Source: Candidatus Electrothrix rattekaaiensis
GTDB lineage: Bacteria; Desulfobacterota; Desulfobulbia; Desulfobulbales; Desulfobulbaceae
Length of the DNA stretch: 64,000 nt
Reading direction: 5' to 3'
Assembly (NCBI GenBank): GCA_032595675.1
Contig: JAVQMD010000001.1
Location: 2,202,640-2,266,639 of the forward strand
Shown: positions 13,628-24,614 of the stretch, one piece after another
Layout: each line of letters starts with the position of its first letter
Numbering within the stretch: position 1 is the first letter of the stretch
Notes under the pieces: generated by a model
Databases searched by the model: none
What the model was told of the DNA's origin: nothing
Seen by the model: the letters and a program-made list of their open reading frames with translations, nothing else
Program-made: the position numbers and the translations under genes

Positions 13628-13723
13628 TCTGAAAACTCTTTTGCTGTCCCGGCTTTTTTTGTTCGCGCCGGGATGGAGAATAAAAAAAGCTGGAGAACCT
13701 GTGTTGCGCTGGATGGAGTGATT

Positions 13724-16700
13724 ATGAGAGAGCTTCTGCTGCTTGACCTTGCCGGGTTTCGTTGCGGTGTCTGGAAGGAGGATATTCTTTCTCATGAAGA
13801 ACAGATCATCCACTGGCTGACAGACAATAACGGAGCCGTGACCGCTATCGCCATGATGGGTGCGCATCCGGTGAGCTTGGCAGATCTTTCGTATTGTATC
13901 GGACTGGCTTCTGCATCACGTAGAGCCGGAGGATATCCGGTGCTCGTTCCTGCTGATCATGATCTCTCTGTCAGCTTTGTTGTGGAGCAGGAAGTGGGCG
14001 AGGTTCAGGTGCCCTCTTCTGCTGTGTTCTCTCTGCCCGCCTATCTGCAAACTCCCTTCATAGACAGTTGTGTCCAGCTTGACGGAAAATTTGACGGACA
14101 GCTTGTCCCGCTGATCAATATCCAGGCTGTCCATTGCCGGATATCGGCGGGTGAATATACACCGCCGACACCGCAATTCTGCCTCCCTGTCCTTAAAGAG
14201 GACAAAGAAAAAGAGGACAAAGAAAAAAGAACGCCCTCACTCGGCCCTCTCAGAGTTTTTACCTGCAAGAAGAAATCCTTTGCTGCTTCAGCTGATTATT
14301 TTTCTTCAGAGCTGGCTCAGTCCCCTGGTTGTCTAACGTGCCTTCCGCTGATGCCGGAATTTGTGCGAGGCATCACCCTGCACAATAATCAGGTACTCAC
14401 GGTCCTTGATATCCGTAGATACTTACAGCTCTCATCAGACGTAGAAGGAGATGAGGAAAAATGGCTCATCGGTGCAGTCGAAGGGCAGGGCTTTGCCTTT
14501 GTTGTTGATGCTGACCAAGGATTGCTGCCTGCGAATTCTGCTTCTCTTGCGGCATTGCCCTTATTGGTTCGATCTGACTGGCAGCAGAGCGTGGTGCTCC
14601 ATGCTCGAAAGATTATCCCTGTACTTGATTTTAGAGAACTGCTCGCCAAGCCACTGGATAAATGCTCGCAAGCATTACCTCAGGATTTGCACTCAGATGG
14701 ACGTTTTGAGGCCGTGTTTGGTAAGCAACAGGTTAAGATCGTAGAATTCTCCATCCTTAAAATGAGCCATGCGTTGCCTGATCTTGAAGTGCTGGATATT
14801 ATTCCGTTCAGCCACTGTCAGCGTTTGGCTGGGACCAAAGGGCTTGTTGCCGGTGTCACCCTGTACAGAAAAGAATTATTGCCGGTTTTGGATCTGGCAC
14901 GATGTTTCGGTCGGGAATCCAGCCCAGGCCCGGCCTGGAAGCTGTTGCTGGTTTGTAATGGCGACTTTCGTGTCTTGGTCTTGGTTGAAGACGTACTCGG
15001 CAAGCGCTTACTCAATGTCAGCGAACAGCGCGCACTCCCCTTTACAGCTCCGCATTCTTCCGTGTATGGCTGTTACCCGGTAGATGGTCGAGTGGGCCTG
15101 ATTTTTAATATCCCGGCCTTGGCCGTGTATTTTGATGAGGAACAGATAAGTAAGTTATTCTTTTTTGCGGATGACCTGCTGCCGCCTCCGGTAAACGATG
15201 CCGAGAAGGATCTTGAGGAACAGGAAGACGAGCAGAAAAACGAAGTATTTCCCGAGTCATTCTTTTCCGCATCCGGCAGGGAAAATTCCGCTGCTGACCA
15301 GAACTCGGGGAAGAATGTTTCGGTTCTGCTCACAGAAGAACAGGACTCGCTGGTGCAGTCTGTTGTGGCCGCAATGCTCAGTCGGAAAGAAGACGATGAA
15401 GACGATGCACTGTATGCGGGGGAAGAAGAGCGTCAGCATGATCAGGACTCGGGAGAGAGCATTTCGGTTCTGCTCACAGAAGAGCGGGACTCGCTGGTGC
15501 AGTCTGTTGTGGCGGCAATGCTCAGTCAGAAAAAAGAGCGACCTAAGAGTGAGAGAGAGGCTACTGGCGGAGCTGCGGAGGCGGCTTCCGAAATGGCTTC
15601 TCATTTATCGGAACCTGCTCCTGATTCGGAAGAATTCCGCAAACCGAGTTCTGTTTCGGTCGAGATCCTTTCCAAAGAGGGCGAGCATCCCTCAGAGGCT
15701 GAAGGCGATGCTCTTTTTTCTTATGAAGAGAACACATACGAGAATGGAACGTCACGAGCGGCTGATGCACCTCCGCAGGCATCGCCTGTCCTGTTGACAG
15801 AAGAGCAGGATAATTTGATTACGTCCACCTTGGCATCAATGTTATTGAGAGAGCAGAAGGGTGAGGGTGAAGGTGAGGAAACGAGCGTCCCTGAAATTAA
15901 CGAAGAGTTGGGAGAGGAACAGGAGGTTGATGTATTTTCTGAGAAATCGCAAAGTCTTGCTGAATCGCTTACTGAGTCGCAAGAGGTTGCGAGATTTTTA
16001 TCGGTATCTGATGAGCCGCTTCTCGAAGACAGTGAACAACTGGCAGCAGCTCAACCGGATAAAGAAGAAGAAAATAATTTTGTTGAGAGCAAGGGTGAAT
16101 ATGGGGATGCATCTCCTCACAATTTTGTTGATACTGACATTGAAGAGCTGAGTCAAACTGGTCATACTGAAGGGAAGAAGGAGCAGGAGCACGTTGATAT
16201 CTCGGGTGATAGCTTTTCTGATACTCCAGAGCGAACAGCGGAACAGGAAAAGGCCTGTTTATCTTCTCTGGATGAGGCTGTACCTGTTGTGCCGTCGGAA
16301 GAGTCCTTGGTGGCGTTCCAGGATTCCCTGCAGGAGGATGGAGAAGGACGTGCTGAGGAGTTAGTAGAGAAAGACGTATCGACTCCCGCGAAAGAGCGTG
16401 AGGGGGACGCTGTTGTTGATGAGCTGGCGTGTGCAACAGGGGAGGAAGTGCCGTTAGTGCCGACCACCTTGTCGACCACCTGGGATGTTTTTGAAGATGC
16501 AGATTCCTTTCCTGAACTCAAAGATTTTGTTCGCCAAATTTCTGGAACGCAACAGGATGATTCTCCTCTTACTATGCCGCCTGCTGATTTTGTGAAGCAG
16601 GTTAGGTTTCCCACTCTTTCTTCACCAGATCCTAGGAAAATTAAGGAGCAACTCGATAAGGCACGGCAAAAAGAAAGGGATATTCTTTTTTGGAAAGCAG

Positions 16701-18340
16701 AACATGAGCAGGAAGAACCGCCTGATATTCAACCGTGGGGGGATGAGAAGCGTAACCGTTCAACGTTGTGGATACTTTTTTTTCTATTGGGCCTCGTTTC
16801 TGTTTTTTTTCTCTGGCTTTTTGTTTTTCGAGATCAGGAAATATATCGTGGAAAAGAAATAAAACCAAATTCCGCTCCTTCAGAGATCAATAAGGGAGTG
16901 CCTCCTTTGATTCAGGACATAGTACCTGAGAGAAAAGAGGGTGAGCGAGCAAAGAGTCTTCAAAAAAGTAAACCTGAATCGCCCGTTGTGCATTCACCGA
17001 CTTTGTCGGAGTCGAAATTGGCCGTGGAAGATCAATCTGCCCAAGCGACTTCTGAACAAATATCAACAGGTAGTCCGGTTGAGGGATTCCCTGAAAAGAT
17101 AAAGCATGGTTCAGAGATTTTTTCAGAAAATGATGGGAAGCAGCAAAGAACGACGGATCCTAAGGAGCTGGGACAGGAACAGGGTGAAGAAGACCTCGTC
17201 GAGAGTGTTCATGAGGATAATGAGAAGCCAGAGGCTCGGACCTCAGGTCACGTGTCTGATACTTCAGATGATGGTGTAGCTGATGATGTTACACCAAAGA
17301 GTGCTGTGGCTGTGAAGAAAGGGTTTGTTGAGGGCGCAATCGGCACTTCCTCTGATGATGGTGAAAAGGGGAGTAACGTTCCAGAGAGAGTTCCAGAGGG
17401 AGTTACAGCGGCATCACAGAAGAGGGGAAAAGTTGCCGAGGATTTTGCCCAAGCCAAGGTTGACGAAAAAAGAGTAGAGCAGCAATTGCCTGCCTCGGTT
17501 GCGCATTCTTCTCAGAATATTTCAGCAAATATCGTCGGGGATGGTCAAGAGGTTCAAGAGACTCAAGAGACTGCGGTCAAAAGTCTACCCGAAGTAGGAG
17601 TTGTCGGCTTGGCTGGCGATCAGAGCAAAGAGAGAGTGGAAGACAGGGCAACTGTGTCGAAGGGTGAAAAAGATCTTTTCGGGAATGTTTCTGAGGATGA
17701 TGAGAAGCCAGAAGCTCTGTCCTCAGATCACGTGTCTGATACTTCAGATGATGGTGTAGCTGATGATGTTACACCAAAGAGTGCTGTGGCTGTGAAGAAA
17801 GGGTTTGTTGAGGGCGCAATCGGCACTTCCTCTGATGATGGCGAAGAGGAGAGTCAGGGTGATAGCGTTCCAGAGAGAGTTTCAGAGGGAGTTCCAGCGG
17901 CATCAGGGAAGAGGGGAAAAGTTGCCGAGGAGGTTGCCCAAGCCAAGGTTGACGAAAAAAGAGTAGAGCAGCAATTGCCTGCCTCGGTTGCACATTCTTC
18001 TCAGGATATTTCAGCAAATATCGTCGGGGATGGTCAAGAGGTTCAAGAGACTCAAGAGACTGCGGTCAAAAGTCTACCCGAAGTAGGAGTTGTCGGCTTG
18101 GCTGGAGATCAGAGCAAAGAGAGAACGACCCTAGCTGATCAGCAAAAAACACTATTGATGTCCCCCATAAACGGCACGTCTACTCATCATACCGTGAGCA
18201 AGGGGGATACGCTCTGGGAAATTTCTGAGCAATATACCGGTAGCGGTTTTAATTACCCTGATGTTGCAAAGAAAAATAAAATTACCAACCCAGACCTTAT
18301 TTATCCCAACCAACAGGTGACATTGCCTGCTAAGAAATAA
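13724..18340 (+). CDS. Triple CheW-like domain, acidic repeats, one TM and LysM
   Basis: A 1538-residue membrane protein with a rare architecture. Three CheW-like domains fill residues 1-480, each ending in the family signature (QLVPLINIQAV; VRGITLHNNQVLTVLDIRRYL in part; VAGVTLYRKELLPVLDLARCFG in part). A long, very acidic, probably disordered stretch follows, with three copies of a helix LLTEEQDSLVQSVVAAML (near nt 15325, 15467 and 15788). A single TM helix (WILFFLLGLVSVFFLWLF) lies at about 1013-1035. The last ~500 residues should be periplasmic and end in a LysM domain (HTVSKGDTLWEIS, about 1490-1538). This predicts CheA/receptor-type contacts inside and peptidoglycan binding outside. ATG 13724 has GGATGGAG five bases upstream; an ATG at 13673 lies on a hairpin and lacks a ribosome site. 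Confidence 0.82.
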   Translation: MRELLLLDLAGFRCGVWKEDILSHEEQIIHWLTDNNGAVTAIAMMGAHPVSLADLSYCIGLASASRRAGGYPVLVPADHDLSVSFVVEQEVGEVQVPSSAVFSLPAYLQTPFIDSCVQLDGKFDGQLVPLINIQAVHCRISAGEYTPPTPQFCLPVLKEDKEKEDKEKRTPSLGPLRVFTCKKKSFAASADYFSSELAQSPGCLTCLPLMPEFVRGITLHNNQVLTVLDIRRYLQLSSDVEGDEEKWLIGAVEGQGFAFVVDADQGLLPANSASLAALPLLVRSDWQQSVVLHARKIIPVLDFRELLAKPLDKCSQALPQDLHSDGRFEAVFGKQQVKIVEFSILKMSHALPDLEVLDIIPFSHCQRLAGTKGLVAGVTLYRKELLPVLDLARCFGRESSPGPAWKLLLVCNGDFRVLVLVEDVLGKRLLNVSEQRALPFTAPHSSVYGCYPVDGRVGLIFNIPALAVYFDEEQISKLFFFADDLLPPPVNDAEKDLEEQEDEQKNEVFPESFFSASGRENSAADQNSGKNVSVLLTEEQDSLVQSVVAAMLSRKEDDEDDALYAGEEERQHDQDSGESISVLLTEERDSLVQSVVAAMLSQKKERPKSEREATGGAAEAASEMASHLSEPAPDSEEFRKPSSVSVEILSKEGEHPSEAEGDALFSYEENTYENGTSRAADAPPQASPVLLTEEQDNLITSTLASMLLREQKGEGEGEETSVPEINEELGEEQEVDVFSEKSQSLAESLTESQEVARFLSVSDEPLLEDSEQLAAAQPDKEEENNFVESKGEYGDASPHNFVDTDIEELSQTGHTEGKKEQEHVDISGDSFSDTPERTAEQEKACLSSLDEAVPVVPSEESLVAFQDSLQEDGEGRAEELVEKDVSTPAKEREGDAVVDELACATGEEVPLVPTTLSTTWDVFEDADSFPELKDFVRQISGTQQDDSPLTMPPADFVKQVRFPTLSSPDPRKIKEQLDKARQKERDILFWKAEHEQEEPPDIQPWGDEKRNRSTLWILFFLLGLVSVFFLWLFVFRDQEIYRGKEIKPNSAPSEINKGVPPLIQDIVPERKEGERAKSLQKSKPESPVVHSPTLSESKLAVEDQSAQATSEQISTGSPVEGFPEKIKHGSEIFSENDGKQQRTTDPKELGQEQGEEDLVESVHEDNEKPEARTSGHVSDTSDDGVADDVTPKSAVAVKKGFVEGAIGTSSDDGEKGSNVPERVPEGVTAASQKRGKVAEDFAQAKVDEKRVEQQLPASVAHSSQNISANIVGDGQEVQETQETAVKSLPEVGVVGLAGDQSKERVEDRATVSKGEKDLFGNVSEDDEKPEALSSDHVSDTSDDGVADDVTPKSAVAVKKGFVEGAIGTSSDDGEEESQGDSVPERVSEGVPAASGKRGKVAEEVAQAKVDEKRVEQQLPASVAHSSQDISANIVGDGQEVQETQETAVKSLPEVGVVGLAGDQSKERTTLADQQKTLLMSPINGTSTHHTVSKGDTLWEISEQYTGSGFNYPDVAKKNKITNPDLIYPNQQVTLPAKK
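17208..18124 (+). repeat. In-frame tandem duplication inside the CheW-LysM gene
   Basis: Two copies of a roughly 430-bp coding block, near 17208-17635 and 17688-18124, are nearly identical in DNA. The offset is 480 bp at the left end and 489 bp at the right, so copy two carries a 9-bp (three-codon) insertion. The block encodes an acidic linker between the TM helix and LysM, with motifs such as SDTSDDGVADDVTPKS. High nucleotide identity implies a recent event or gene conversion. Confidence 0.9.
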
Positions 18341-19109: not shown

Positions 19110-21029
19110 TCACACCGGTCGCAACACCAGATGCTCCATAATATACTGACGACGATCAGGCGTGTTTTTCCCCATGTAAAAACTGAGTACCTGACCGACT
19201 TCAGACAGGCTGTCCAGCTGTACCGGCAAAATTCGCATATCCGATCCGATGAACTGCTTGAACTCCGGTGGTGAAATTTCCCCGAGTCCTTTAAAACGGG
19301 TAACCTCCACTGAGGCAGCATTACCCCGGCCCTTTAGAATATTGATCGCCTCTTCCTTTTCCTGAGTAGAATAGCAATAGATGGTCTGCTTCTTGTTTCT
19401 CGCTCGAAAAATAGGGGTCTCTAGGATGTAGACATGACCGAGTTTGATCAGCGGTTCAAAATAATGGAGAAAAAAGGTGAGGAGAAGATTGCGGATATGC
19501 AGCCCGTCCACATCAGCATCGGTTGCGAGGATAATCTTGTCAAAACGCAGGTCGGCAATGGAATCCTCGACATTCAAACCCCGCATAAGAGAGTACATTT
19601 CGTCGTTTTTATACAGAATGTCAAGGCGCTGGCCAAAGACGTTCATGGGCTTTCCTTTGAGGGAAAACACGGCCTGGGTCATGGGGTCGCGGGAAGAAAC
19701 AATGGAGCCAGCAGCGGATTGACCCTCAGTGATAAAGATCATATTTTCCCGACCTTTTTTTGACGGATTGTGTCGGGAAGGATGATGTTTGCAGTCCTTG
19801 AGCTGCGGAATCTTGAAAGCGATTTTTTTGGCTTTGGCCTTGGCCTCCTTGCGCACGGATTGTAATTCTTTGCGAATGCGCTCATTCCGTTGGATCTTAT
19901 CCAGGAAGATCTCCGTGTTTTCCGGGAATTTGTACAGATAGGTGGCTACAGCATCTCGGACAGCATTGACGATCCAGCTTTTTACATCGGTATTTCCTAA
20001 CTTATTCTTTGTTTGCGATTCGAAAACGGGTTCCTGCACCTTAACGGCAAGGGTGCCGACAATGCCATCCCGCACATCTTTTCCCGTGTATTTTTTGTCC
20101 GAGAATTCGTTAACTCCTTTCAGTATTCCCTCGCGAAAGGCGGAAAGATGGGTTCCGCCTTCGGAAGTATAGGTACCATTGACAAAGGAATAATAGGTCT
20201 CGCTATAATCGTCTGTATGGGTGAAGGCGAACTCTAAAGCGGTTTCAGAAAACTGGATAGGAGGATAGATCCCCCTGTCGCCAAGTTCTTTGTGCAGCAG
20301 GTCAAGGAGCCCCTTTGCTGAATAGTATTTTTTCTTTGCAGGCTTGGCATTCCCTGCTTTTTCCTCTTCTGTTGCCTCCTGCAAGCTCGGCGCATCAAGA
20401 TACAAGATCAGGCCCGCGTTAAGATAGGCGTAACGCCATAAGCGTTGATCAACATAGTGCATGTCAAAAGAATAGCGGGGAAAAGAAGCTGTGTCTGGCA
20501 GGAATTCGATCAGCGTGCCATCTTTCTCCTCTGTCTCTCCTTCCTCCTCATGAACAAGGGTGCCGTGTTCAAAGAGGGCCTTTTTAAAGCACCCCTTGCG
20601 AAAGGCGCAGACCGTAAACTGCTCGGAAAGCGCGTTGACCGCCTTGGTTCCCACTCCGTTCAGTCCCACGGAAAATTGAAAGACATCCGTGTTGTACTTG
20701 GCCCCGGTGTTGATAACAGACACACATTCCACAACCTTACCCAGCGGGATGCCGCGCCCGTAATCCCGCACCTGACAGCGACCGTTTTCATCAATGGAGA
20801 TATCAACCTGTTTGCCGTACCCCATGATGTATTCATCCACGGCATTGTCGATCACTTCTTTGAGCAGGATATAGATGCCGTCATCAGGGTCAGATCCGTT
20901 GCCGAGCCGGCCGATGTACATGCCGGGACGTTTGCGGATATGTTCCAGGGAACTGAGGGTCTTGATTTTCGATTCGTCGTATTGATGTTCTGACACGTTA
21001 TTTTGAGTAGTTTTTGTGTTGAAATTCAT
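19110..21029 (-). CDS. parE: DNA topoisomerase IV subunit B (ParE/GyrB family)
   Basis: The ATPase subunit of a type IIA topoisomerase, 639 residues. GHKL motifs: EVIDNAVDEYIMGYG (N-box), DYGRGIPLG and GLNGVGTKAVNAL. The TOPRIM domain shows TEGQSAAGS with the catalytic Glu, then DADVDGLHIRNLL (DxD metal site) and the KGLGE/PPEF region. EGQSA in place of EGDSA, the short length and the lack of the GyrB insert favour a ParE-type enzyme. The partner A subunit is not adjacent in the window, so it must be elsewhere. I chose ATG 21029; the frame extends to a TTG at 21065 without a ribosome site. Gyrase B cannot be fully excluded. Confidence 0.85.
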   Translation of the reverse strand: MNFNTKTTQNNVSEHQYDESKIKTLSSLEHIRKRPGMYIGRLGNGSDPDDGIYILLKEVIDNAVDEYIMGYGKQVDISIDENGRCQVRDYGRGIPLGKVVECVSVINTGAKYNTDVFQFSVGLNGVGTKAVNALSEQFTVCAFRKGCFKKALFEHGTLVHEEEGETEEKDGTLIEFLPDTASFPRYSFDMHYVDQRLWRYAYLNAGLILYLDAPSLQEATEEEKAGNAKPAKKKYYSAKGLLDLLHKELGDRGIYPPIQFSETALEFAFTHTDDYSETYYSFVNGTYTSEGGTHLSAFREGILKGVNEFSDKKYTGKDVRDGIVGTLAVKVQEPVFESQTKNKLGNTDVKSWIVNAVRDAVATYLYKFPENTEIFLDKIQRNERIRKELQSVRKEAKAKAKKIAFKIPQLKDCKHHPSRHNPSKKGRENMIFITEGQSAAGSIVSSRDPMTQAVFSLKGKPMNVFGQRLDILYKNDEMYSLMRGLNVEDSIADLRFDKIILATDADVDGLHIRNLLLTFFLHYFEPLIKLGHVYILETPIFRARNKKQTIYCYSTQEKEEAINILKGRGNAASVEVTRFKGLGEISPPEFKQFIGSDMRILPVQLDSLSEVGQVLSFYMGKNTPDRRQYIMEHLVLRPV

Positions 21030-21308
21030 ATTGTTGCTCGTTATTTCATCAGTCTGAAAGGACAATTATCTCATGATAACGACCCTTGGAAGCAGAATTT
21101 TTGCGGCGAATTTGACGGGCGGCGAAAAAAAATGGTATGAGGTGAAATATCGACGGGTAATTCATCTTCTGTTCATGTTGTATTGGTATAAAGATCTGTT
21201 GTTTATCTTCTGTTCATCTTGGTTCTTCTATAATAGAAGAGAAAGTAGGGGGTGGCAATACAAAATTCCCTGCTGGCTGCTGCGCGGGATTAATAGCTGA
21301 ATTTCAAA

Positions 21309-21350
21309 GACCTGAGTATTTATGTTGAGCTCAGGTCATGTGTATTTTTT
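21309..21350 (+). terminator. Candidate intrinsic terminator
   Basis: GACCTGAG (21309-21316) pairs with CTCAGGTC (21330-21337), followed by ATGTGTATTTTTT. The gap 21030-21640 is AT-rich and non-coding apart from a doubtful 75-codon frame at 21073-21300 that ends just before this hairpin. It also holds a short direct repeat CTTCTGTTCAT (near 21170 and 21207). Confidence 0.45.
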
Positions 21351-21630
21351 ACTCACTGTTCTTTGGAGAAAGGATAAGACTTACTCGTTTTAAGGCGTTA
21401 ATGAGAAAGCTATCTTGTTGGCAAGGATTCTCGTTCCTGTCTTAGGGTAGTTATTACAAGAAATTAGAAGAAGGCAGTGGAAACAAGAAAAAGTGGCATG
21501 AATATAGCATCTGTAATTATGAAAACAACGTAAAAAAAGAAAAAAACGCAGTATGTACAAGCGGAGAATATAACGGAGATACAACAGGGGTTCTGAATAA
21601 ATATACTTTATTTCCCCCTTTTTTATATAT

Positions 21631-22096
21631 AGCATAGGGTGCGCAACCCTGAGACCCCGGCAGGTTTACTCCTCCTTTTTTTTCCTGCCGGGGTACTTGA
21701 AACCGCTTGGTTTATTTTTACAAAATTAATGATGTTCAACCCTGTGCCTCGGCAGGTTTCTCCTCCTTTTTTCCCTGCCGGGGCATGTATTAATCAGAAC
21801 TGATTTTTTGAGTAGCATAAGGTTCAACCCTGTGCCTCGGCAGGTTTCTCCTCCTTTTTTTCCTGCCGGGGCATGTATTAAACAGAACTGATTTTTTGAG
21901 TAGCATAAGGTTCAACCCTGTGCCTCGGCAGGTTTACTCCTCCTTTTTTTTCCTGCCGGGGCATGTTTATCAGAACTGATTTTTTGAGTAACATAAGGTT
22001 CAACCCTATACCTCGGTAGGTTTGCTCCTCCTTTTTTTCCTACCGGGGTATTTTTATAGTTGGACAGGACACCCCGTTTCGGGGTGTTTCTTTTTT
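21631..22096 (+). ncRNA. Candidate sRNA array: five anti-Shine-Dalgarno hairpin units
   Basis: Five units, with the landmark CAGG/TAGG of the left arm at 21661, 21753, 21841, 21929 and 22017, so the period is 92 then 88, 88, 88 bp. Each has a 10-12 bp stem (GCCTCGGCAGG ... CCTGCCGGGGC) and a 17-20 nt loop containing CTCCTCCTTTTTT, close to the 3' end of 16S rRNA. The T in CCTCGG faces G, a G-U pair on the + strand but a C-A mismatch on the other. Unit five changes both arms together (GGTAGG/CCTACC; TACC/GGTA). Each stem is followed by a second small hairpin plus T-run, with different sequences (AAACC/GGTTT, AATCA/TGATT, ACACCCCG/CGGGGTGT). This supports a + strand structured RNA or set of short RNAs. 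No confident promoter was found. Confidence 0.7.
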
Positions 22097-22097
22097 C
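22069..22097 (+). terminator. Strong intrinsic terminator closing the hairpin array
   Basis: ACACCCCG (22069-22076), loop TTT, CGGGGTGT (22080-22087), then TTCTTTTTT. It works only in the + direction, and no + strand protein gene precedes it, which supports transcription of the hairpin array. Confidence 0.85.
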
Positions 22098-22109
22098 TCC
22101 TCGTCACAG

Positions 22110-24614
22110 TCACATCATATTCTCCGGATCCACATCAATACCCATTCTTACGCCAGCTCGGCAAACGCGCCTTTTTTCCGTAATAATCAGATCGCAGAGC
22201 CGATGCAGCTTTTCCGGTTCACGGCTTTTGAGCAGTAATTGCCAGCGAAAACGTTTTTTTATCATAGATAAGGGTGCCGGAACCGGCCCCATAATGTCCA
22301 CGGCTTTCTCTTTGAGACTGCGGAGGAAGTCAGCTGTTTGTTGGGCAGTTACAGCCACATTTTCTTCTTTTTCGCCGCTGAATTTGATGTTTATCAGTCT
22401 GCCGAACGGCGGATAGGAAAGAGCGTCCCGAAATGCTACTTCCTGCTTATACAGCTTATTGTATGCATGGGAGCGGGCAAATTCGATGACATAATGTTGT
22501 GGTTGATGGGTCTGAACAATAACCCTGCCGGAATGCTTGCCCCGTCCTGCCCTACCGGTGACCTGAGCAAGGAGCTGATAAGAACGTTCAGCCGCCTTAT
22601 AATCGGGAATCCCCAGCCCGCTGTCCGCCCATATAATGCCCACCAAGGTCATTGCCGGAAAATGGAGTCCTTTAGCCACCATCTGCGTACCCACCAGAAT
22701 ATCCACTTCATGATTGCGTACCTGATCTAAAATGCGCAAATATGCTTTGCGATCTCTTGTCGTGTCGCTGTCTAGGCGGGTAATCCTAGCATCGGGAAAA
22801 AGTTGTCGTGCCTCCTGTTCAATCCGTTCTGACCCCACACCGAGTCCGATAACCGAGCCAGACCCGCAATCCGGACAGACAAGATTCGGGGTTGTTGTAT
22901 AGCCGCAATAATGGCAGAGTAAGCGGTTATCACCCTGATGATGGGTGAGCGAGACCTTGCAGTGGCGGCACTGGATGATGTATCCGCAGTCCCGGCAGAG
23001 CATAAACGCGGCATACCCTCGGCGATTGACAAAGAGTAGGCTTTGTCGTTTCTTCTCCAGGTTTTCCTGTAAGGCGGTGAAGAGCTGCTCAGAAAAAAAA
23101 GCGTTTTTTCGCTCCCGTTGTTTTTCCCGAAGATCAACAACCATTACCTCGGGCATCACCTGATCATGTATCCGTTTGGTCATGGTGAGGAGGCGATACT
23201 TTCCCTGTTCAGTATGATAAAAACTGGTCACAGAGGGGGTTGCCGAAGCAAGCAGAACCGGGCAGTCGGCAAACTTTGCCCGGAGTACAGCCATGTCTCG
23301 TCCGTTATAGCGAAGCCCGTCGTCCTGTTTATAGGCAGGTTCATGTTCTTCATCAACGATGACCAAACCGGGCTGGGCAAGCGGGGCAAAGACAGCGGAA
23401 CGGGCCCCGATAACAATACGTACTTTGCCCTGAAGGATTCGCTGCCATTGATCAAACCGTTCACCGATTGAGATACCGCTGTGCAGAATGGCCAACGTGT
23501 CGCCGAAACGGGAATAAAAATGTCCTTCCAGCTGGGAGGACAGGGCTATTTCCGGTACCAGGATCAGCACGGATTTTTCGCAGGCCAGACAATGTTCCGT
23601 TGCCCGCAGATAGACCTCGGTTTTTCCGCATCCGGTCACGCCGTGCAGGAGAAAGGGCTGGAATCCTCCGGTGTCGAGTGCAGTCTTTATTACTCCGATA
23701 ACCTGATCCTGTTCCGTGGTCAGGGTATCCGGTTTTGGGAAAAAAGGCGGGACCTTACCAAAGGGATCTCGATACACCCGCTGTTCTTCAAGGGTCACAA
23801 AGCCGGTTTCTGCCAGACTGTGCAGGGCCTTGCCAGCTCCGGGATATTGTCGGGTCAGTTCGGCACGAGGCAGGAGAGGATGCCCTTTGCAACGACTGAA
23901 AAACAGGTCTAAGGTTTTGAGCTCGGATTTTTTCAGTTCATCCTGTGAAGTATTCGGAATGACAGTATTTTTATCCTGATTCTCCTTTGTTTCTGTTTGG
24001 TAGCGGGCAAGGCTCTCCTGAAGTGCAGTATTCAGCCTGACCATGGTTTCGGTTTTTTTCTTGACCGTTGGGCTGAGAATCACCTCGTTGATATCAATCC
24101 ATCCCTCTGTCTGCCATGTTCGCAACAGGTTCTGCATGGCTGCTTTCCTGCGAATGGTCTTTACTGTTCCCGGTAGCAGCTTCCCCTTATCCAATAATCG
24201 GTCCATCCAGGCGGACCGATTTTTTAGGGTGTTCAGAGCTGCTGGTAGTTTTCGGTGACCAGCCTCGGTCAGAGAAATTTCATACCCGGAACCAGCCCGG
24301 AGACCTGATGGCAGGGCGGTTTGAATAACCTCGCCGAGTGGATAATGGTAATAGTCGGCAAGCCAACGGAAAAAAGGTATGAGCTGTTCCGGAAAAAGGG
24401 GTTCGGGATCAAGTCGCTCCAGAATCGGCTTGATCTGATAAGGGAGGTCGGGAGAAGGGCTTGCAGAGGACAGTATATAACCGGTGACAAAACGGTTTTG
24501 CAGGGGAACCAGTACTCGAAGACCGATAGGCAAGGGCTCTGTGAGATCGACCGGTTGAGCGTAGGTCAGGTTGCCGAAAAAAGGGGCGGCGACAGCAACC
24601 TCATAAACAATCAT
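22110..24614 (-). CDS. priA: Primosomal protein N' (replication restart helicase)
   Basis: An 834-residue superfamily 2 helicase that recognises stalled forks and reloads the replicative helicase. The N-terminal DNA-binding domain begins MIVYEVAVAAPF. The Walker A is GVTGCGKTEVYL, the DEAH-box variant is VDEEHEPAYKQDDG, and a zinc-binding cluster of eight cysteines (from CRDCGYIIQCRHC to CPDCGSGS) interrupts the helicase core. Motif V/VI region: QVTGRAGRGKHSGRVIVQT. The length is about 100 residues above E. coli PriA. The start is ATG 24614. It is transcribed towards the hairpin array, in the opposite sense. Confidence 0.96.
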   Translation of the reverse strand: MIVYEVAVAAPFFGNLTYAQPVDLTEPLPIGLRVLVPLQNRFVTGYILSSASPSPDLPYQIKPILERLDPEPLFPEQLIPFFRWLADYYHYPLGEVIQTALPSGLRAGSGYEISLTEAGHRKLPAALNTLKNRSAWMDRLLDKGKLLPGTVKTIRRKAAMQNLLRTWQTEGWIDINEVILSPTVKKKTETMVRLNTALQESLARYQTETKENQDKNTVIPNTSQDELKKSELKTLDLFFSRCKGHPLLPRAELTRQYPGAGKALHSLAETGFVTLEEQRVYRDPFGKVPPFFPKPDTLTTEQDQVIGVIKTALDTGGFQPFLLHGVTGCGKTEVYLRATEHCLACEKSVLILVPEIALSSQLEGHFYSRFGDTLAILHSGISIGERFDQWQRILQGKVRIVIGARSAVFAPLAQPGLVIVDEEHEPAYKQDDGLRYNGRDMAVLRAKFADCPVLLASATPSVTSFYHTEQGKYRLLTMTKRIHDQVMPEVMVVDLREKQRERKNAFFSEQLFTALQENLEKKRQSLLFVNRRGYAAFMLCRDCGYIIQCRHCKVSLTHHQGDNRLLCHYCGYTTTPNLVCPDCGSGSVIGLGVGSERIEQEARQLFPDARITRLDSDTTRDRKAYLRILDQVRNHEVDILVGTQMVAKGLHFPAMTLVGIIWADSGLGIPDYKAAERSYQLLAQVTGRAGRGKHSGRVIVQTHQPQHYVIEFARSHAYNKLYKQEVAFRDALSYPPFGRLINIKFSGEKEENVAVTAQQTADFLRSLKEKAVDIMGPVPAPLSMIKKRFRWQLLLKSREPEKLHRLCDLIITEKRRVCRAGVRMGIDVDPENMM

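Follow-up and report, generated by a model that had tools for sequence, protein, structure and literature searches.

Here we describe a tandem array of five RNA hairpins (21654-22051, + strand) in the window, that is, the whole 64,000-nucleotide stretch of Candidatus Electrothrix DNA analyzed in this work. That the array stem is a genuine + strand RNA helix is well supported, and so is the similarity of its promoter and box layout to that of Escherichia coli zraP. On the reading that we favor, with moderate confidence, the array encodes an envelope-stress small RNA (sRNA) that was formerly an element of the zraP 3' UTR and whose loops, resembling the 3' tail of 16S rRNA, would block Shine-Dalgarno (SD) sites without Hfq.

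Organization of the array locus

The five units occupy positions 21654-21694, 21743-21787, 21831-21875, 21919-21965 and 22008-22051 of the + strand, and each was recovered by folding, stem reading and the covariance model. The units are spaced 88-91 nt apart (start-to-start distances of 91, 88, 89 and 88 nt), with stems of 11-14 bp (11, 14, 14, 14 and 13 bp from unit 1 to unit 5) and loops of 17-19 nt, in agreement with the sequence-only reading that had placed five units at 21631-22096. CTCCTCCTTTT is present in the loops of all five, and the loop motif is CUCCUCCUUUU. The array is closed by an intrinsic terminator (22067-22095, +), in which GGACACCCCGTTTCGGGGTGTTT (22067-22089) is followed by CTTTTTT; this terminator is retained in L003-L007 and L009, the six loci of the genus with an inspected array end. 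No T run directly follows units 1-4. A small second hairpin of conserved structure, earlier ascribed to each unit, did not hold up: the spacers fold weakly (only -2.8 to -4.0 kcal/mol) and are not kept, the final terminator excepted. Unit 3 is followed by a spacer in which the AATCAG/CTGATT stem no longer exists, and AGCAGAGCTGG stands at the spacer in the relative with 16 copies. The boundaries first assigned to the locus do enclose the five hairpins, but omit a control region at 21340-21520, which perhaps begins at 21161.

In the window, the array is flanked by a gyrB/parE-like gene (19110-21065, -) and priA (22110-24614, -). No + strand ORF of at least 20 aa lies wholly inside the interval between the promoter and the first hairpin; a 54-aa + strand ORF starts at 21639 and crosses units 1 and 2. 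DNA identity puts the window closest to Ca. Electrothrix (Desulfobulbaceae), the longer stretches around the array sharing 85-91% of positions with Ca. E. marina and 84-89% with Ca. E. aarhusensis. The window's own genome also carries a solo hairpin copy (C1:2148116-2148177, -), with the loop UUUCACCUCCUUUUUUUU, which is even nearer to the 16S tail, CACCUCCUUU; by eye, an HsdM-like type I restriction ORF lies downstream of it.

Covariation and the structured strand

The stem was aligned across 35 hairpins (34 distinct rows) from 16 loci plus the window. The 13-bp stem is paired in 97.0% of the alignment cells, and 8 of its 13 pairs vary on both sides, with 38 cells changed on both sides versus 12.2 in shuffles (0 of 500 as high). 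The two compensatory changes previously noted in unit five are indeed present (C-G to U-A and G-C to A-U). Among the 34 distinct hairpins, stem cells comprise 388 Watson-Crick, 37 G-U, 2 A-C and 11 other combinations. The predominance of G-U over A-C identifies the + strand as the structured one and bears out the earlier interpretation of T facing G as a + strand G-U pair. Both strands fold better than shuffles, with unit z-scores of -3.55 to -5.90 on the + strand and -2.90 to -4.28 on the - strand. Covariation, conservation in the family and the + orientation of promoter and terminator together uphold the initial proposal of a tandem + strand RNA family with anti-SD loops.

Sigma-54 promoter and ZraR-type boxes

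A sigma-54 promoter, TGGCATGAATATAGCA (21494-21509, +), scores 22 of 23 and predicts a transcription start near 21520. Two ZraR-type enhancer boxes (no strand assigned), GTGTATTTTTTACTC (21340-21354) and, 32 nt after it, GGATAAGACTTACTC (21372-21386), each match 8 of 10 positions of GGGTAN5TACCC and begin 154 and 122 nt before the promoter, respectively. The two features expected of a ZraR/sigma-54 regulon member, a sigma-54 promoter and paired ZraR-type boxes, are thus both found in the window.

This layout recurs in relatives. Within the genus, each of the eight loci that include the upstream region has TGGCATGRATATRGCA at a distance of 148-160 nt ahead of its first hairpin, and the sigma-54 scores there are 22-23. 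For the wider comparison, a set of 61 loci with a scripted CCTCC hairpin was used, model matches with other loops (L115, L116, L119, L121, L141 and others) lying outside it. In the 700 nt upstream, 48 of the 61 loci reach a score of 22 or more out of 23, compared with 1/61 on the other strand, 0/60 downstream and 28/2440 in shuffles; these counts are not independent, as a CCTCC hairpin was the criterion of choice and several loci come from close relatives (G004/G007, the g9 set and L011/L067). Score cut-offs of 20-22 were used, 15 being uninformative (2437/2440 shuffles pass). Across the 49 promoter loci, defined by a score of at least 21, a GGGTAN5TACCC-like box (at least 8 of 10, within 200 nt upstream) is present at 46, often at about -144 and with a second at about -112, versus 4 of 47 downstream stretches.

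In E. coli K-12, the zraP boxes GAGTAAAAATGACTC and GAGTCATTTTTACTC lie 31 nt apart and are followed by TTGGCACGGAAGATGCA; ZraR binding to this spacer is reported in a published study (PMC8249747). The E. coli locus thus shares with the relatives' loci a box spacing of 31-32 nt, a sigma-54 promoter and the divergent orientation of zraP and a kinase gene, but, by eye, has no CCTCC hairpin after zraP. As a member of such a regulon, the array would respond, via ZraR, to zinc or to stress on the envelope.

Distribution and copy number

The covariance-model search in relatives that the sequence-only reading had called for returned matches at E <=0.001 in 58 of 73 family genomes, covering 12 of 14 genera. 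After reading of the matches, 53 of the 73 keep the C-rich-loop hairpin: G022, G071 and G076 are not of this type (two short-loop terminators and one partial match), and G065 and G074 were unread. Copy number, which the sequence-only reading had proposed to count, also varies, with arrays of 3 to 16 hairpins in the genus: 5 in the window, 3 each in G001 and G002, 4 in G003, 5 each in G004 and G007, and 16 in G006, the array of G005 being broken over contigs. G006 is the sole 16-copy genome; the other seven genus genomes have 4 to 6 model matches including solo copies, at least one genus match (L143 of G002) being doubtful. Outside the genus there are 1-3 model matches per genome. Copy number in relatives as a whole ranges from 1 to 16.

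In a sample of the phylum, 22 of 297 genomes match the covariance model, 3 of these from the same family. Nineteen loci were inspected, and most of those properly readable are plain terminators; L090, L097, L098, L102 and L104 are short loci that were misplaced. L088 is hairpin-like with a sigma-54 score of 20. L092 and L101 belong to a single genus from a different family of the phylum; both are terminators whose loops contain CTCCTCCC and which have a T run but no sigma-54 site, possibly a separate case. A pattern scan over one genome per species (84,980 species) yielded 40 stretches, 18 of them assigned to Desulfobulbaceae from record title or genus, among them Ca. Electrothrix, Ca. Electronema and Desulfogranum. 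Upstream sigma-54 scores reach 21 or more in 14 of the 18, compared with 2 of the 22 others.

Association with a ZraP-like gene

At 30 of the 49 promoter loci, promoter and hairpin are separated by a ZraP-like ORF, and the hairpin begins 14-105 nt past the stop codon of this ORF, a 3'-UTR position like that of CpxQ; such a gene is missing at the array of the window. Matches to Pfam Metal_resist were obtained for 27 of the 30 ORFs at E <=0.01, some under the curated cut-off, and one ORF compared with NCBIfam matched ZraP at 3.9e-8 and 33.7 bits (cut-off 200). L144, which has an unrelated ORF, was left out of the alignment of ZraP-like sequences. All six loci read for a divergent kinase-like ORF have one, and for one such kinase ZraS was the best NCBIfam model, at 329.7 bits (cut-off 479).

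At L010 and L011 (g10), a zraP-like gene and the hairpin lie between the same two neighbors as the window array, and matches to the window's two flanking genes also bracket this hairpin and promoter in Ca. Electronema aureum and Desulfobulbus sp. F5. The Electrothrix array locus lacks the zraP-like gene. An ortholog of the ZraS-like kinase was not found in the eight genus genomes, none of the matches listed reaching query residues before 233 of 620. The genome of the window encodes a ZraR-like regulator that is 55% identical to E. coli ZraR and ranks first among 7 matches in a one-way search; by eye, there is no kinase-like ORF beside it. Given that no ZraS ortholog was found in the genus and that the boxes match at just 8 of 10 positions, the inducing signal may have changed. 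A weak Metal_resist gene on C3 of the same genome was considered and dropped, with no promoter by pattern and no hairpin by eye.

A hairpin on its own, about 100 nt past the promoter, also occurs in g9 and g6. At L014-L016 (g9), the lone hairpin has a T run and is under sigma-54/ZraR-type control; an HtrA/DegP-like protease ORF lies downstream of the hairpin at L015 and L016. G033 (g9) has a zraP-linked hairpin copy (L153) as well.

Loop motif and search for targets

CTCCTCC occurs six times on the + strand of the window, five of these inside the array, and four times on the - strand. The motif is CUCCUCCUUUU in the window, and most relatives have CCUCC as their common core. The loop core is identical to the 16S 3' tail, CCUCCUUU. 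Sigma-54-linked hairpins without CCTCC in the match also exist (L115, L119, L121, L133 in its second hairpin, and L141 with a plain U loop). A C-rich motif in the 30 nt before the hairpin is found at 24 of 61 loci versus 8 in the control stretch, and is absent from the window's genus. At the g5 loci L013, L018 and L019, a CTCCTC-type motif is visible by eye in the linker before the hairpin besides that of the loop, so that one unit may carry two anti-SD seeds; the same loci have, by eye, a KaiC-like ATPase ORF downstream of the hairpin.

The target prediction proposed by the sequence-only reading gave no clear target, either in the genome-wide complement search or in the duplex scan of the window. 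CTCCTCCTTTT occurs 27 times in the genome, compared with 14 for the reversed pattern, and five of the occurrences are the array. For three of the 22 non-array copies, a count without a chance baseline, the complement is located 2-3 nt upstream of an ORF that starts with ATG and is at least 100 aa long (by eye, aldolase-like, TIR-like and transposase-like). With only three such sites resembling ribosome-binding sites, no target is put forward. Loop-to-ribosome-binding-site duplex energies of 32 window ORFs, based on crude start codons, did not differ from controls (Wilcoxon p 0.86), with energies of -8 kcal/mol or lower for 5 window ORFs versus 1 control; with the same crude start codons, an SD-like motif was found for 9/32 window ORFs versus 1/32 controls.

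Proposed mechanism and alternative explanations

In the mechanism that we propose, a ZraR-like response regulator would activate the sigma-54 promoter under envelope stress, and transcription would start near 21520 and end near 22095, yielding a single non-coding transcript of about 575 nt, or processed pieces of it. The transcript would display five hairpins (3 to 16 in congeners), with the loop CUCCUCCUUUU resembling the 16S rRNA 3' tail. These loops would base-pair with ribosome-binding sites of the AGGAGG type that are exposed and, independently of Hfq, prevent initiation for a set of mRNAs. Originally, the hairpin would have belonged to the 3' UTR of a ZraP-like gene of that regulon; Electrothrix would then have lost the protein gene from the locus and amplified the hairpin in tandem, providing more seeds per transcript. 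Promoter, host gene and copy number are readable from genomes, and whether repression strength depends on how many loops a transcript has becomes a testable question. A bolder version, which we regard as tentative and rather doubtful, is that cable bacteria, in which Hfq is not detectable, turned the zraP 3'-UTR hairpin into a self-standing, dosage-tunable anti-SD array: a single stress transcript would supply 3 to 16 mimics of the 16S tail and throttle a whole class of strong-SD messages, copy number itself being the evolved setting.

The hairpin could instead be a 3'-end or terminator-type element without any trans target, its role being to stabilize or end sigma-54 transcripts and the array being its neutral amplification. 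This would fit its position directly after zraP in many relatives, followed by U runs, and the GC-rich stem also occurs in plain terminators of these genomes, which the covariance model therefore matches too. We consider it unlikely, given how the loop is kept: among 40 fetched model matches, 20 of the 25 that have a sigma-54 site (score of at least 21) contain CCTCC, as opposed to 5 of the 15 that lack one (Fisher p 0.006), 7 of the 10 matches with neither promoter nor CCTCC are short-loop terminators by eye, and the C-rich motif recurs in the linker at the 24 loci mentioned above. In the window itself, no + strand ORF of the size sought is wholly contained between promoter and first hairpin, units 1-4 lack a T run, and a separate terminator closes the array. 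The same loops might serve as a sponge, repeated C/U-rich sequences titrating an RNA-binding protein such as S1 or a non-Hfq chaperone, in the way that CsrB/RsmY RNAs titrate CsrA. The 16 hairpins in one array of G006 and the U run present behind the C-rich part in all 35 aligned rows would suit such a role, but with 1-3 model matches per genome outside the genus, and no GGA, the sequence that CsrA binds, in the + strand loops, we rate it as decidedly improbable.

The remaining two explanations dispense with a + strand RNA altogether. A DNA-level repeat of the REP/BIME or MITE-like kind, with no RNA role, is suggested by a palindromic tandem repeat flanked by two minus-strand genes; it is very hard to reconcile with just one further copy in the genome, the promoter at a near-constant distance in all eight genus loci, the same neighbors in related records, and stem changes that compensate RNA-fashion. 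Least credible of all is transcription in the opposite direction, which would present AGGAGG loops as an SD or CsrA decoy: the minus strand does fold better than shuffles, but the excess of G-U over A-C cells, the near-exclusive placement of sigma-54 sites upstream on the + strand (48/61 versus 1/61 on the other) and the + orientation of the terminator all contradict it.

Comparison with known small RNAs

At gathering thresholds, Rfam gave no match in the 64-kb window, and at E <=1 the six matches in 21100-22200 included nothing convincing (the best, GcvB, at 21.6 bits versus 42); Rfam 15 may not contain every cuckoo model, or an LhrC model. Hfq over the Pfam cut-off was found in 0 of 73 family genomes, with a weak match in one, in a search that was positive in 5 of 14 control genomes and can miss this small protein; the host thus shows no sign of the Hfq on which an Hfq-dependent sRNA would rely.

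The likeness to alphaproteobacterial cuckoo RNAs drawn in the sequence-only reading stands as one of mechanism, but no covariance match to the described family was obtained in Rfam. NfeR1/alpha-r14 has three hairpins with CCUCCUCCC, a CCUCC-type anti-SD motif, and varying stems (PMC10746234), and CcsR1-4 of Rhodobacter sphaeroides combines an RpoH promoter, a small protein gene, four sRNAs, a terminator and RNase E cutting (PMC10253847). Hairpins that each carry a CCUCC-type anti-SD motif on varying stems are common to these systems and the array. They differ in being alphaproteobacterial, in their RpoH or RpoD promoters and in a DUF1127 protein rather than ZraP: the unpaired hairpin regions of the window hold CUCCUCCUUUU, not the ultraconserved CCUCCUCCC, and the gene linked in relatives is ZraP-like, not the DUF1127 gene of the CIN1 locus.

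LhrC1-5 of Listeria monocytogenes responds to cell-envelope stress via a two-component system, impeding translation through redundant CU-rich sites, and is described as not requiring Hfq (PMC4132741). Its five copies equal those of the window array, but in a Firmicute and under LisRK. The LhrC copies are separate genes, whereas the window array has one promoter and one terminator. CpxQ, an sRNA from the 3' UTR of cpxP, a periplasmic envelope-stress protein gene under two-component control, is described in another study (PMC4817254). The relatives' hairpin likewise lies in the 3' UTR of an envelope-stress protein gene, with sigma-54/ZraR in place of Cpx control. CpxQ also has a different seed and a different use of Hfq.

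The array thus appears to resemble alpha-r14/CcsR and LhrC in its working and was not found to belong to either. The open-licence PMC literature on Electrothrix, Desulfobulb and zraP small RNAs yielded no description of the array RNA: its parts are known separately, but the combination of sigma-54/ZraR-type control, a zraP 3' UTR, an array of up to 16 copies and no Hfq was unmet there. Most of a bacterial family that includes cable bacteria carries this RNA, for which the window gave no Rfam match. It appears to represent a further, probably independent lineage, besides alphaproteobacteria and Listeria, that ties stress to multicopy anti-SD loops with no Hfq found.

OmpR-type repeats and other features of the window

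A motif scan revealed two possible further promoters upstream of the array: an OmpR-type direct repeat, TTCATCTTCTGTTCATGTT (21161-21179), with TATAAA 7 nt on (21161-21192, +), and a second, TTTATCTTCTGTTCATCTT (21202-21220), with TATAAT 8 nt on at 21229-21234 (21202-21234, +). In the 64 kb, the repeat TTCATSTTCTGTTMATCTT occurs, with up to 3 mismatches, at these two sites (21161 and 21202) versus 0.05 expected; genome-wide, there are 12 sites with up to 2 mismatches and none for the reversed control. The repeat precedes 6 of the 7 solo hairpin copies in the genus, including C1:2148116 of the window genome. Of the 6 Electrothrix array loci checked, however, only 2 have it ahead of the array, and it is therefore regarded as an addition in some species. 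The sites include G000:C1:2148217, C1:1444709, C1:2024297, C3:111195, C3:212914 and window positions 21161-21234. By eye, several precede small secreted-protein ORFs and one precedes an OmpR-type response regulator; one site is upstream of the stretch with the ZraR-like gene described above. These sites may delineate a putative OmpR-type direct-repeat regulon that comprises small secreted proteins, an OmpR-type regulator and the solo hairpin sRNA. Elsewhere in the window, a 1555-aa ORF (13673-18340, +) has, by eye, a LysM-like end and long acidic repeats.
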